Positions 4,810-10,246 of a stretch of DNA of 10,476 bases are shown in pieces. How positions within the stretch are numbered: the first letter of the stretch is position 1; every line of letters begins with the position of its first letter. The notes under the pieces were generated by a model, which saw nothing but the letters and a program-made list of their open reading frames with translations, did no database searches and was not told where the DNA came from. Made by a program: the position numbers and the translations under genes. The DNA comes from Nitrospinae bacterium RIFCSPLOWO2_12_FULL_45_22 (GTDB lineage Bacteria; 2-12-FULL-45-22), in assembly GCA_001803565.1 (NCBI GenBank), contig MHDQ01000321.1:1-10476 (forward strand), read 5' to 3'.

Positions 4810-5469
4810 GTGAAAGAAAAAGAGGGGAATAAGAAGGGGAAACAATTATCATCCGTCTCCCGCAGAGAATTTATTAAGGGACTGGGTGCAGGAGCCTTAG
4901 GTACCGCTGCCTTGTCCGGGGGAATTATCGCCTTGAAAGAAGCGGAGGCACACCCGGCAGAGGAATCTTTAGAAGAGGGAATAAAGATACCCCTTAGGTT
5001 AAAGATTAATGGCATCAGGTATAAGGTCGAGGTAGAACCGCGATATACTCTGGTAGATGTGATCCGCGACCAGCTCCAACTTACCGGAACCAAGAAGGCT
5101 TGTGACCGGGGAGAATGTGGTGCCTGCACAGTTTTACTCGATGGGAAACCGGTATATTCCTGCATGACTCTTGCTATTACCGCGGCAGGAAGAGATATCA
5201 TGACTATTGAGGGGCTAGCCTCTGGTGAAGAACTCCATCCTATCCAGCAGGCCTTTCTGGAAAACGATGCTTTTCAATGCGGTTTCTGCACGTCAGGACA
5301 GATCATGGCCGTCAATGGTTTACTAAAGCAGAATTTGAATCCATCCCGAGAAGAAGCAAGGAATGCCCTCGCGGGAAATATCTGCCGCTGCGGGACCTAC
5401 ACCAGAATTCTGGAAGCAACCCTGGATGCTTCCCAACGCCTCAGGAAAGGTGGTGGTAACCGTGGGTAG
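4810..5469 (+). CDS. Tat-exported 2x[2Fe-2S] subunit of a xanthine dehydrogenase-family Mo hydroxylase
   Basis: The electron-transfer subunit, 219 residues. The N-terminus is a twin-arginine signal: SRREFIK (17-23), a hydrophobic stretch at about 24-42 and a likely cleavage site after AEA (45-47). A plant-type ferredoxin domain follows with Cys98, 103, 106 and 118 (CDRGECGAC...C). The helical second [2Fe-2S] domain has Cys157 and 160 (QCGFCTSGQ) and Cys192 and 194 (NICRCG). All eight cluster ligands are present. The start is GTG 4810 with AGAAGGG seven bases upstream; no in-frame ATG occurs until after the signal. The complex would act outside the cytoplasmic membrane, as in the PaoABC aldehyde oxidoreductase, whose iron-sulfur subunit alone carries the signal. 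Its stop overlaps the next gene by 8 bases. Whether the substrate is an aldehyde, purine or other N-heterocycle is not determined. Confidence 0.93.
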   Translation: MKEKEGNKKGKQLSSVSRREFIKGLGAGALGTAALSGGIIALKEAEAHPAEESLEEGIKIPLRLKINGIRYKVEVEPRYTLVDVIRDQLQLTGTKKACDRGECGACTVLLDGKPVYSCMTLAITAAGRDIMTIEGLASGEELHPIQQAFLENDAFQCGFCTSGQIMAVNGLLKQNLNPSREEARNALAGNICRCGTYTRILEATLDASQRLRKGGGNRG

Positions 5470-7771
5470 AAGGGTTAAAACCCGGGTTGAGGAAGAAGGA
5501 AAAATAGAAGAGATAAATGTAGAGCTACCTCATGAGGATTTGCCCCCATGGGAGGAAAAAAACTTAGTATGGGTAGGCAAAGGAATCCCCAGGGTTGATG
5601 GTTTTGAAAAATGCACAGGAAAGGCAAAGTATACCTACGACATTCACCTTCCGGGTATGCTCTATGGCAAGATTCTCAGATGTCCCCACCCACATGCCCG
5701 CTTGATTAGATTGGATACCAGTAAAGCACAACGCCTTTCCGGGGTAAAGGCAATTCTATCGCAGGAAAATGCTCCCCCCATCCCTTGGTATAACGATAGT
5801 TTTCTCTTTGACCGGACGCTCCGGTGTGTGGGAGAAGAGGTAGCCGCCGTAGCCGCCGTGGATGAATATATAGCCCGCGATGCCCTGGATATGATAGAAG
5901 CAGAGTATGAATCTTTGCCCTTTGTGGTTGACCCAGAAGAAGCCCTGAGACCGGGGGCACCCCCAGTCCGCCCCGGGGGAAACCTGTTAGATGGGAAACC
6001 TATCATATATTCCCGGGGGGAGATTGAACAGGGCTTTGACGAGGCGGATTTAATAATAGAAGAGAACTTCTCTACCCAGGTCCAGGCACATGCCTGTATG
6101 GAGACGCACGGGAGCGTAGTCAATTGGGAAGGAGATCATCTAACTATATGGGAATCTACCCAGGGGGTATCGGATGTACGGGAAGGTATGGCTAAGGCTT
6201 TGGGTATTCCCATCAGCAAGGTCAGGGTCATCAAGGATTTTATGGGGGGTGGATTCGGGAGCAAAACCAGGGAAGGGAAATATACTGTTATTGCAGCCCT
6301 CTTAGCTAAGATGACAGGCCGGCCAGTAAAGCTTATGCTGGATCGAAAAGAAGAGTTTTATGCGACCGGCCATCGTCCGTCTTCTTTGCAATATGTAAAA
6401 GCAGGGGTCAAAAAAGATGGTTCTTTGACTGCTATTTATCTCAGAAGTATCGGGGCCTGTGGGGCTTATGAAACGCCACTCTTTCCCAGTAAGTTCAGCA
6501 TGATCGATGCGCTTGCCAGGCCCTACCGGGAGCTTTATCACTGTCCTAATGTGAAGACTGAGGTTTATCCTGTCTATAATAATATACCCGTTCATACAGC
6601 GCAACGGGCACCCGGTCATGTAGAGGGAACATTTGCCCTGGAACAGGTCATGGACCAGGCAGCACATCAATTGGGTATGGACCCCATCGCCCTACGGATG
6701 AAGAACTACGCTTTGAAAGATCAAGTAGAAGATTTTCCCTATACCCGAAAGGCTTTGGACCAATGCTACCAGAAAGGGGCAGAAAAGATTCAGTGGGAAA
6801 AACGGAATAAAAAACCAGGAGAAAAAAAGGCGCTTATCTGTGAAGGAATAGGGATGGCCGGCCAGATCTGGGGTGGAGGCGGCGGTCCGCCAGCATATGC
6901 GATAATCAAGATTAATCAAGATGGTACGGCTAACCTTCTTACTGGAACTCAGGATATCGGCACCGGATCAAAAACAGTCTTTGTCCAGATAGCTTCCGAA
7001 GAATTAGGTATCTCTCCCAAAGATATTACCATTACTTTAGGAGATACAGAAACGACTCCTTATGCTCCCCGCAGTTCTGGTAGCCGGACAGTACCAAGCG
7101 TAGGTCCTGCAGTCAGATCTGCGGCTGCTGATGCGAAAAGACAGCTCTTGGACCTGGCAGGATCTATACTCGATTCAAAAGCAGAAGACCTGGCCATAAG
7201 AGAAGGGCAAATCTATCTGAAGAATAATCCTACCCGAAAAATTCCTCTAAAAGAGATAACGCAAAAAATGGGGAATAATATGATCATGGGTGTGGGATCT
7301 CGTGGACCTAATCCACCCCAAGCTGCTATAAATGTATTCGGGGCACAATTTGCTCACGTTGCAGTCAATACTGCAACGGGAGAAGTAAGAGTATTAAAAG
7401 TGGTATCCATACATGATGCGGGCCGGGTGATAAATTCAATGACATTGAATAACCAGATTGAGGGAGGTATTGTACAGGGAATGGGTTATGGGCTGATGGA
7501 AGAAGTCATTTGGGATAAAGGAACAGGGATTATGCTCACCCCAAACCTACATGCTTATAAGCTGCCTACTATGCTTGATATACCTGAAGTCGTGCCCGGG
7601 GTAGCAGAAGGATCAGACCCGGCTAATAATATTGGGGCTAAGGGAATAGGAGAACCACCCAAGATTCCTACTGCCCCGGCTATCGCCAATGCTATCTATA
7701 ATGCGATTGGAGTGCGTTTGAAGGAATTGCCTATTACGCCGGATAAGGTTTTAAGGGCACTCAAGATATGA
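5462..7771 (+). CDS. molybdopterin-binding catalytic subunit of a xanthine dehydrogenase-family Mo hydroxylase
   Basis: The catalytic subunit, 769 residues from GTG 5462, that would hydroxylate its substrate at a molybdenum-cytosine or molybdopterin cofactor. A charged N-terminal segment of about 40 residues precedes WVGKGIPRVDGFEKCTGKAKYTYD, the usual start of the a/b hammerhead domain. Cofactor-loop motifs follow: MGGGFGSK (261-268), QRAPGHVEGTFALE, GTQDIGTG, and a C-terminal KGIGEPP with Glu731 at the position of the general base. The length is normal. The frame is open back to 5363, but that reading overlaps the [2Fe-2S] domain of the preceding gene. GTG 5462 has AGGTGG at 5448-5453 eight bases upstream and overlaps the preceding stop by 8 bases, which suggests translational coupling. 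It has no signal of its own, so export would depend on the Tat signal of its partner. Substrate specificity cannot be assigned. Confidence 0.93.
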   Translation: MGRRVKTRVEEEGKIEEINVELPHEDLPPWEEKNLVWVGKGIPRVDGFEKCTGKAKYTYDIHLPGMLYGKILRCPHPHARLIRLDTSKAQRLSGVKAILSQENAPPIPWYNDSFLFDRTLRCVGEEVAAVAAVDEYIARDALDMIEAEYESLPFVVDPEEALRPGAPPVRPGGNLLDGKPIIYSRGEIEQGFDEADLIIEENFSTQVQAHACMETHGSVVNWEGDHLTIWESTQGVSDVREGMAKALGIPISKVRVIKDFMGGGFGSKTREGKYTVIAALLAKMTGRPVKLMLDRKEEFYATGHRPSSLQYVKAGVKKDGSLTAIYLRSIGACGAYETPLFPSKFSMIDALARPYRELYHCPNVKTEVYPVYNNIPVHTAQRAPGHVEGTFALEQVMDQAAHQLGMDPIALRMKNYALKDQVEDFPYTRKALDQCYQKGAEKIQWEKRNKKPGEKKALICEGIGMAGQIWGGGGGPPAYAIIKINQDGTANLLTGTQDIGTGSKTVFVQIASEELGISPKDITITLGDTETTPYAPRSSGSRTVPSVGPAVRSAAADAKRQLLDLAGSILDSKAEDLAIREGQIYLKNNPTRKIPLKEITQKMGNNMIMGVGSRGPNPPQAAINVFGAQFAHVAVNTATGEVRVLKVVSIHDAGRVINSMTLNNQIEGGIVQGMGYGLMEEVIWDKGTGIMLTPNLHAYKLPTMLDIPEVVPGVAEGSDPANNIGAKGIGEPPKIPTAPAIANAIYNAIGVRLKELPITPDKVLRALKI

Positions 7772-7835
7772 AACTGATCAGAAACTACTTACAATTTCTT
7801 CTTTTTCTTTATGGGAAAAGGTTAGGGGGAGAAGC

Positions 7836-8813
7836 ATGAAAGGCTTTACCTTTCATAAACCAAGATCGCTGAAAGAAGCCTTGGCTATGCTTAAGGAGGC
7901 CGATGGTAAAGCTAAAATCATGGCCGGCGGTACAGATCTATTAGGGGCAATGAAAGATGGAATCATGCAGCCTGAACGGTTGATCAACCTGCAAGAAATA
8001 CCTGATTTAGCAAATATTCGCCCGGATAATGATAGGCTTCATCTGGGAGCATTAGTTTCGTTGCACGAGATAACAGTTCATCCCTCAATCCAGAAGAGAT
8101 TCGGAATTTTGGCCCAGGCGGCCCAAGAAGTAGGTAGCCCTCAACTCAGAAACATGGGAACCTTAGGGGGCAATCTTTGTCAGAGGCCCCGTTGCTGGTA
8201 TTATCGGGGAGATTTTGTTTGTCTCAAAAGGGGAGGGGATCAATGCTTCGCTGTTACGGGTCAAAACAAATACCACGCTGTTATAGAGGGTGGTCCTTGC
8301 TTTATAGTTCATCCTTCGGATACCGCACCAGCTTTGCTGGCAATGGACGCAAGCGTGAGGATAGCTGGTCCTGATGGAGAGAAGATTGCAGCCCTGGAAA
8401 AGTTCTTTATGACACCCCGGGACAATGTAACTCGGGAAAATATCTTAGAACCTGACCAGATATTAACTGAAATAATGGTTCCTCTCCCCAGGGAAGGAAG
8501 CCGGGGTATTTATTTGAAGGCAAGAGAGAGAAGATGTTGGGACTTTGCTCTGGCCAGTGTTGCTCTCTTGCTGAATATTGATGATGGCATTTGTCAGGAA
8601 ATAAGGCTGGTCCTGGGTGGTATAGCTCCTATTCCTTTCCGGGCTTCTAAGGCTGAAGAGGTGCTTAAGGGTAAGCCAATAGAAATCGAGTTGATTGACC
8701 AAGCTTGCCGGATGGCACTAAGCGGTGCTAGGCCCCTAGCTTCCAATGCTTATAAACTTGAGTTAACCCAGGCTCTGATAAAACAAGCGCTTCTCACCCT
8801 TTCAAATAAATAA
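7836..8813 (+). CDS. FAD-binding subunit of the Mo hydroxylase, with a probable [4Fe-4S] loop
   Basis: The flavin subunit (CoxM/PaoB/HcrB-like), 325 residues. MAGGTDLLGAMKDG (29-42) is the first FAD-binding loop, and GSPQLRNMGTLGGNL (100-114) the second. A cysteine-rich stretch follows directly: Cys115, 120, 129, 137 and 155 in the order CQRPRC, FVC, GDQC and GGPC, then HPSD. Plain CoxM-type subunits lack this stretch. It matches the arrangement of PaoB and 4-hydroxybenzoyl-CoA reductase beta, which hold an extra [4Fe-4S] cluster. The C-terminal domain (about 210-320) has the family's ERRCWDFALASVA and LGGIAPIPFRA. AGGGGGAGA (7824-7832) supplies the ribosome site. It lies 64 bases after the catalytic subunit gene, giving the order FeS-Mo-FAD, whereas E. 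coli paoABC is FeS-FAD-Mo. No signal peptide is present. Confidence 0.92.
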   Translation: MKGFTFHKPRSLKEALAMLKEADGKAKIMAGGTDLLGAMKDGIMQPERLINLQEIPDLANIRPDNDRLHLGALVSLHEITVHPSIQKRFGILAQAAQEVGSPQLRNMGTLGGNLCQRPRCWYYRGDFVCLKRGGDQCFAVTGQNKYHAVIEGGPCFIVHPSDTAPALLAMDASVRIAGPDGEKIAALEKFFMTPRDNVTRENILEPDQILTEIMVPLPREGSRGIYLKARERRCWDFALASVALLLNIDDGICQEIRLVLGGIAPIPFRASKAEEVLKGKPIEIELIDQACRMALSGARPLASNAYKLELTQALIKQALLTLSNK

Positions 8814-8839: not shown

Positions 8840-10246
8840 ATGGACAGAGAAAAAATAGGAAAAGGACATTTTTTCCCTAAAGAAATCAATAGGAGGGAAT
8901 TTGTAAGGCTCTCGGGCTTAGCTACAGGCTTGCTATTAACTATCGGGAGAGGAACCTTTTTCCCTTTTGACACCAAAGCCGCAGAAAATAATCATATTGC
9001 GCTTCCTATTTTTGAGCATTATGGAGACCAACAAATCCGACTGGATTTTCCTGGGGAATGGAAAATTCAAGAAGCCAGGATGAAGGCCCACGACTTTCCT
9101 CCTTTAACACCGCAGCAAATCAAAGAAGCTTTCAATAATCCTATAGGGATAAAACCTTTGCAGGAATTGGCTCAAGGGAAAAAAAGGGTTGTTATAACCG
9201 TGGACGATTTAGAGAGACCCACACCGGCATATGCTATCCTACCTCTGTTATTGGAAGAGTTAAATCAGGCAGGTATTAAGAATGAGCAAATAAGCTGTAT
9301 TGGGTCTTTTGGTAATCATGACCCCATGACCCAGGATCAGGTCATTCGAAAAATTGGGATAGAAACCGCCAGAAAGATCCCTTTTTTCAATCACAATTGT
9401 TGGGATAATTTTGTGGAGCTAGGAAAAACATCTCAAGGTACCCCATTAAAAATCAATAAGGAGTTTATGGCTGCTGATTTAAAGATTTCTATCCAGGGGT
9501 TCAGGTGGCATGAGATTGCCGGATTTGGTGGTGGAGGAAAGGCGGTATTACCAGGCGTAGCTTCTATAGAATCAACGGAACATAATCACCTTGAGATCGG
9601 TTTTCCCAATAGGAAACCAAATCCTGCGGCGGGTCCATGCAAAGTTAAAAATAATCCAATAAGGAAAGATATGGATGAAGCGGCTAAATTGGCCGGTTTA
9701 GATATGTGTTTGGTTGTTTTTCCTAATGGTCGTCGAGAGGTTATCGGCTTAATAGCCTGCGATCCAGTGACCGGATGGCGGGAGGCTTGCAAAAAAGGAT
9801 ATGCTCTGCATCTCACTCAAGAGATTAAAAGTGCCGATATAGTCGTAGCCAATACCTATCCCCAATGTGCCCAGCCGCAAAGCTCTTTTCCCTTATTGAA
9901 TCAATCGGTCCGGGAAGGAGGGACAGCCGTTCTGGTCATGCAGCATCCTGATGGAATGCGACAGATCCATTACCTAGCCAGACAATGGGGAAAAGACTAT
10001 GGTGGACATCTCTGGATGCCTCCCAATCCTGAAAGGGCTTTGGTCCCCGCAGCAAGCCGTCTGATCATTTTCACCAATTTAGGAACCAAAAACGACCAGC
10101 TTAATTTTCCTCATAAGCAAGTAGAATTTATGTATGCCTGGCCGGATGTCCTTGCCAGGCTAAAGAAATATCATAAAGAAGCATCGGTAGCCGTCTATCC
10201 TTATGCCCCCTTGCAGATTCCTACCAGCCTGACCTTGGATATTTAA
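8840..10246 (+). CDS. Tat-exported LarA-like (nickel-pincer) racemase/epimerase family protein
   Basis: A 468-residue protein: a Tat signal of about 48 residues (NRREFVR at 17-23, hydrophobic 24-35, AA at 47-48) followed by about 420 residues of the lactate racemase family, close to the 424 of Lactobacillus LarA. Family motifs are VDDLERPTP (121-129, Arg126), GSFGNHDPM (His160), RWHEIAGFGGGGKAVLPG (His224, Lys234) and STEHNH (His250). The spacings His224-Lys234 (10) and Lys234-His250 (16) equal those of LarA His174, Lys184 and His200, which anchor and coordinate the nickel-pincer nucleotide. An active cofactor-bearing enzyme is therefore likely. LarA-type enzymes racemise or epimerise 2-hydroxy acids, including sugar acids; the substrate here is unknown. 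The gene lies 26 bases after the FAD subunit gene, so it is probably co-transcribed. The start follows a run of eight G. LarB, LarC and LarE are not in the window. Confidence 0.88.
   Translation: MDREKIGKGHFFPKEINRREFVRLSGLATGLLLTIGRGTFFPFDTKAAENNHIALPIFEHYGDQQIRLDFPGEWKIQEARMKAHDFPPLTPQQIKEAFNNPIGIKPLQELAQGKKRVVITVDDLERPTPAYAILPLLLEELNQAGIKNEQISCIGSFGNHDPMTQDQVIRKIGIETARKIPFFNHNCWDNFVELGKTSQGTPLKINKEFMAADLKISIQGFRWHEIAGFGGGGKAVLPGVASIESTEHNHLEIGFPNRKPNPAAGPCKVKNNPIRKDMDEAAKLAGLDMCLVVFPNGRREVIGLIACDPVTGWREACKKGYALHLTQEIKSADIVVANTYPQCAQPQSSFPLLNQSVREGGTAVLVMQHPDGMRQIHYLARQWGKDYGGHLWMPPNPERALVPAASRLIIFTNLGTKNDQLNFPHKQVEFMYAWPDVLARLKKYHKEASVAVYPYAPLQIPTSLTLDI

Follow-up and report, generated by a model that had tools for sequence, protein, structure and literature searches.

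A LarA-like protein with a candidate twin-arginine signal belongs to a signal-bearing clade that spans at least five bacterial phyla

Can the nickel-pincer nucleotide (NPN) be carried out of the cytoplasm by the enzyme that holds it? To our knowledge this cofactor is known only from cytoplasmic enzymes. The question is raised by a gene at positions 8840-10246 (forward strand) of the 10,476-nucleotide stretch of DNA analysed here (the window), an open reading frame of 468 codons starting with ATG and encoding a LarA-like protein of 468 residues in which a candidate signal for twin-arginine (Tat) export precedes the enzyme domain. A G-rich stretch, GGGGGGGG, lies directly 5' of the ATG, and a scan for promoters and terminators around the gene gave nothing above the shuffled background. 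That the start codon had been annotated too far 5' was ruled out, since an in-frame stop lies 10 codons upstream of it and the next in-frame ATG is at residue 81, within the domain.

Pfam Lar_N (PF09861) matches residues 61-252 of the protein at 5.1e-50 (170 bits against a cut-off of 23.3), and the closest solved structure by sequence is that of the malate racemase Mar2 (1.3e-44). An AlphaFold2 model generated from a 29-sequence alignment (pLDDT 88.8) matches the L. plantarum LarA holoenzyme (8ezf) over residues 50-463, beginning at residue 1 of 8ezf (Z 40.3, 388 aligned residues, 2.5 A; Foldseek E 1.7e-28). Because the match begins at residue 50 of the model and at the first residue of 8ezf, residues 1-49 are an addition ahead of a complete LarA. 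The signal region outside the LarA fold (residues 1-48, positions 8840-8983, forward strand) is modelled with a helix at residues 18-32 and with low confidence at residues 30-48. It has been shown that D72, R75, H108, H174, K184 and H200 of LarA hold and use the NPN (PMC7583248). On alignment to L. plantarum LarA these correspond to Asp123 and Arg126 (9206-9217), the catalytic His160 (9317-9319) and His224 (9509-9511), Lys234, the site of the thioamide link to NPN (9539-9541), and the nickel ligand His250 (9587-9589), all on the forward strand. The spacing His224-(10)-Lys234-(16)-His250 is identical to that of H174, K184 and H200. Across 29 aligned homologues Asp123, Arg126, His160, Lys234 and His250 do not vary and His224 hardly does, and the equivalents of all six LarA residues are kept in every row of the clade of signal-bearing homologues (the Tat clade) described below. 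The initial annotation of this DNA had claimed the LarA spacing and the retention of Arg126 and His160, and on both points it was right, with Asp123 kept as well; the alignment to LarA structures that it had proposed superposes the fold on the holoenzyme, with the cofactor residues aligned and the signal as 49 extra residues in front. Its description of a full-length LarA-type domain holds for the fold, which is complete, but not for the C-terminal, substrate-reading half, which is divergent and lacks Lys298.

This C-terminal half differs from LarA at a substrate contact to which the initial annotation made no reference. Gln345 is the kept equivalent of LarA Gln295 (hhalign) and Ser348 occupies the position of Lys298 (9872-9883, forward strand, for the pair), a column on which MAFFT and hhalign agree. 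In the LarA of Isosphaera pallida the substrate carboxylate is touched by both Gln295 and Lys298 (PMC11851776). At the Lys298 column, members of the Tat clade variously have K, R, S, N, A, M or E; L051, L053 and L054 are among those that keep the lysine. K298 is common in characterised LarA groups and missing from some uncharacterised ones. Lar_N, the two-domain fold, the NPN-binding residues and the catalytic equivalents of D72, H108 and H174, by which membership of the LarA superfamily is judged, are all present and K298 is not; its loss bears rather more on mechanism than on membership. The residues suggest that cofactor binding is intact and that substrate binding is changed, and since the C-terminal half is divergent and without Lys298, lactate is not to be assumed as the substrate. 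The NCBIfam models all score far below their cut-offs: 165.1 bits against 460 for lactate racemase (NF033504), 186.8 against 462 for LarAH5, 228.7 against 500 for LarAH6 (malate racemase), the best of these models, 192.3 against 540 for LarAH10 and 45.5 against 740 for LarAH14/15/16. By sequence the protein is thus placed in a subfamily separate from all of these equivalogs.

Directly 5' of the LarA-like gene is a three-gene, PaoABC-like molybdenum hydroxylase (4810-8813). The first gene (4810-5469) encodes the 2Fe-2S subunit of a xanthine-dehydrogenase-family enzyme, and this subunit bears a Tat signal of its own, SRREFIKG. It is followed by genes for a molybdopterin subunit (5363-7771, a mechanical open reading frame whose true start is probably close to where the 2Fe-2S gene ends) and an FAD subunit (7836-8813); all three are on the forward strand and were identified by family matches. 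The best score of the 2Fe-2S subunit is to glyceraldehyde dehydrogenase gamma, below the cut-off. As the ATG of the LarA-like gene comes 26 bases after the stop of the FAD gene, co-transcription is likely. A neighbourhood shared across the Tat clade was not found and molybdenum hydroxylase genes are not near the other Tat-LarA loci; since the pairing does not recur, the hydroxylase cannot be used to infer a substrate for the clade. Elsewhere in the window, a 137-residue protein (2416-2829) that is weakly like TIGR04076 (27 bits, cut-off 33) is flanked by a dihydropyrimidinase-like amidohydrolase on one side and a CocE/NonD hydrolase on the other.

The loci of the relatives have their own content. 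Two from Bacteroidales (L050, 2003-7892; L057, 1276-12743) and one from Kiritimatiellae (L053, 363-2889) hold sialidase (BNR) and DHDPS/NanA-family genes; both Bacteroidales loci also have a sulfatase (by Pfam in L050, and by 78% identity to that copy in L057) and L057 has a NanM-SSF fusion. Genes of the mandelate racemase superfamily are found at a Bryobacterales locus, and one resembling an arabinofuranosidase gene at a Solibacter locus. The theme common to these loci is extracytoplasmic breakdown of sugars and sugar acids, a weak hint as to substrate. Two mandelate-racemase-superfamily proteins near the Bryobacterales Tat-LarA (L052, 995-2341 and 8267-9727) have RR-type N-termini.

The absence of Lys298 makes an exported NPN enzyme that is not a racemase the main rival explanation. 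Such an enzyme might oxidise or epimerise a sugar hydroxyl, or work together with the neighbouring molybdenum hydroxylase in a coupled step of net redox chemistry. K298 is also missing in published groups, and where K298 or H174 is lacking a different hydride chemistry has been suspected (PMC7583248). The variability of the Lys298 column, the low NCBIfam scores and the sugar-related loci of the relatives are in agreement with this idea, but both catalytic histidines, Arg126, Asp123 and Gln345 are all kept and several clade members retain the lysine itself. We regard this alternative as unlikely, if not negligible, and prefer a racemase or epimerase.

Further evidence for a functional cofactor came from the genome to which the window belongs, a 3.67 Mb draft that is about 85% complete. 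The initial annotation had proposed a search for larB, larC and larE, and all three are there, larB next to larC on one contig (C316) and larE on another (C295), together with two copies of tatC, one of them just preceded by a TatA-like open reading frame of 77 residues. One LarA homologue is found in this genome with PF09861 and one with a diverse LarA profile, and both times it is the window protein, although a second homologue might be missing from an assembly of this completeness. Because the cofactor and Tat genes are present and only a single LarA homologue is detectable, the NPN of this organism most likely serves an exported enzyme. In the 13 genomes with Tat-LarA or close relatives, LarC and LarB each scored over the cut-off in 11 (larE was looked for in the window genome alone); neither LarC nor a full LarB was found in two Tat-LarA genomes (G387 and G394), which are possibly incomplete. 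Those two genomes could be taken to mean that the exported protein keeps the LarA fold, no longer carries NPN and has some other role. This is very improbable, given that the cofactor-binding residues, the covalently linked lysine and the nickel-ligand histidine included, are invariant in the clade and that the window genome retains larB, larC and larE and shows no other client. Divergent beside larB-larC is a gene for a DUF362-like protein (recognised by eye) with an RR signal of its own, DRRGFIQLGLKAAMALPLLG; the contig ends within this gene (towards the right end of L116, G000:C316:1-5631, and at 3516-3980 of L002). The DUF362 family also gives a weak match to the window LarA (20.9 bits, below the cut-off); a distant link between DUF362 and LarA, and with it a second exported client, is conceivable.

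The twin-arginine signal that had been claimed for the protein is present: NRREFVR at residues 17-23 (8888-8908, forward strand) is followed directly by a 13-residue uncharged hydrophobic stretch, LSGLATGLLLTIG (8909-8947, forward strand; mean Kyte-Doolittle 1.68), ahead of the LarA fold. The protein has several of the features expected of a Tat substrate, with the RR motif and h-region before a mature domain that begins at residue 50, a signal kept in orthologues throughout the clade and Tat translocase genes in the genome. A candidate signal-peptidase site, TKAA (residues 45-48), was identified by eye; it is not crisp, and the protein may therefore remain anchored in the membrane. When residues 2-45 of the window protein alone were shuffled, an equally good signal appeared in 1.2% of shuffles.

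That the signal is more than a local accident is indicated by its distribution. Of the homologues in 386 diverse genomes, the best (L040) is about 40% identical and bears MSRRTFLGVGATGLAATALYG, and homologues with an RR signal that are 33-42% identical to the window protein occur in Acidobacteriota, Bacteroidota, Kiritimatiellota and Latescibacterota. Scanning named genomes with a profile added members with RR signals from Acidobacteria gp18 (L049), Bacteroidales (L050, L057), Kiritimatiellae (L053), Bryobacterales (L051, L052, L059, L062), Latescibacterota (L054, L056) and Solibacter (L067), and three more LarA-like members in these genomes have the RR on inspection. A tree was built from the LarA core after the signal columns had been taken out. 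In it, all 11 Tat-bearing rows fall into a single clade (support 100/99) and the signal needs a single state change, a value as low as which was seen in none of 500 shuffles; with the root placed outside the Tat clade, the window protein branches first within it. This tree rules out an RR signal private to the window genome. A fixed rule that calls for an RR motif and then an uncharged hydrophobic stretch was passed by all 12 clade rows scanned and by none of the 19 sequences from outside the clade that were scanned with them, and this recurrence removes chance as the origin of the signal. Short signals make L059 and L062 the weakest cases in the clade, and a fragmentary relative (L075) has the RR and fails the rule, its hydrophobic stretch being too short. 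Close relatives outside the clade, some of them from Latescibacterota, have N-termini that are short and bear no Tat signal. Clade membership was sampled: among 64 Latescibacterota genomes, four gave a match at 1e-100, and the Tat form occurs in two of these. Scans of viral contigs, and an initial genome-contig scan with the protein alone as query, gave no match, and a search of plasmids found distant LarA only. The initial annotation had asked whether family members share the RR signal and had noted that its absence from close relatives would count against export; orthologues do have it, as one clade. On these alignments the signal appears to mark a whole branch of LarA in at least five bacterial phyla. 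The notion that a cytoplasmic LarA has an RR and a hydrophobic stretch by chance, with no function in export, can draw on the roughly 1% of shuffled N-termini of this one sequence that pass the same crude test, but conservation of the RR as a single clade trait across at least five phyla, an extension wholly outside the LarA fold and the lack of a further in-frame ATG before residue 81 leave it hardly credible.

The signal and its conservation across the clade, the fold, the cofactor and catalytic residues and the cofactor and Tat genes are all observed here, and they lead us to put at about three in four the probability that the protein is an exported NPN-dependent racemase or epimerase of the LarA superfamily, loaded and folded in the cytoplasm and then exported whole by Tat. 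From these observations we infer a course of events in which LarB, LarE and LarC would make NPN in the cytoplasm, the cofactor would be attached to Lys234 and held with His250 before export, and the folded holoenzyme would leave through Tat to act outside the cytoplasmic membrane. His160 and His224 are probably the two acid/bases of a LarA-type proton-coupled hydride transfer at C4 of the pincer; a hydride passed to the pincer and returned on the other face would invert the carbinol carbon of a 2-hydroxy acid, for which a sugar-derived acid seems likelier than lactate. Such an inversion is not certain given Ser348 in place of Lys298 and the divergent C-terminal domain. It has been shown that PaoABC of E. 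coli, a cofactor-bearing complex, is exported by Tat (PMC4273604), and this precedent, with the Tat-type molybdenum hydroxylase adjacent to the LarA-like gene, supports Tat export of a cofactor-bearing LarA-like enzyme.

On balance we also favour a broader reading, in which an ancient, cross-phylum Tat clade carries NPN out of the cytoplasm, is in some bacteria, the organism of the window among them, the sole client of larBCE and performs extracytoplasmic chemistry on sugar-derived acids. The open-access literature on LarA homologues that was searched makes no mention of export, a signal peptide or the periplasm, in agreement with the earlier remark that no characterised exported member was known. 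The LarA superfamily and Tat export are each known; their combination as a clade-defining trait appears to be undescribed in the papers searched. NPN probably also works outside the cytoplasm. If so, a labile, covalently tethered organometallic cofactor is usable there, NPN joins the cofactors moved by Tat, and extracytoplasmic isomerisation steps new to science may be expected in environmental bacteria. As the window genome has apparently no other NPN client, it offers a clean test of loading before export.

Compared with known systems, the protein shares with L. plantarum LarA (PDB 5HUQ, 8EZF) the whole fold, the NPN-binding residues, both catalytic histidines and the Gln295 equivalent, and differs in its 49-residue Tat leader, the serine for Lys298 and a divergent C-terminal domain, at about 26% identity. 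The malate racemase Mar2 (LarAH6; PDB 6D6Z, 7S91) is the best match among both solved structures and NCBIfam models, but the window protein falls well short of the 500-bit cut-off, and Mar2, which lacks such a leader, retains the Lys298 equivalent. PaoABC-type molybdenum hydroxylases of E. coli, homologous to the three-gene set upstream, belong to another enzyme family and are compared with the window protein for export logic only, namely a cofactor-loaded cytoplasmic assembly followed by Tat export, as predicted here. The single-histidine LarA-like enzymes (PDB 9Q3J, 9Q3K), which have a suspected carbohydrate role, share the superfamily and a divergent half of the active site but lack the second catalytic histidine, whereas the window protein has both histidines and a Tat signal.
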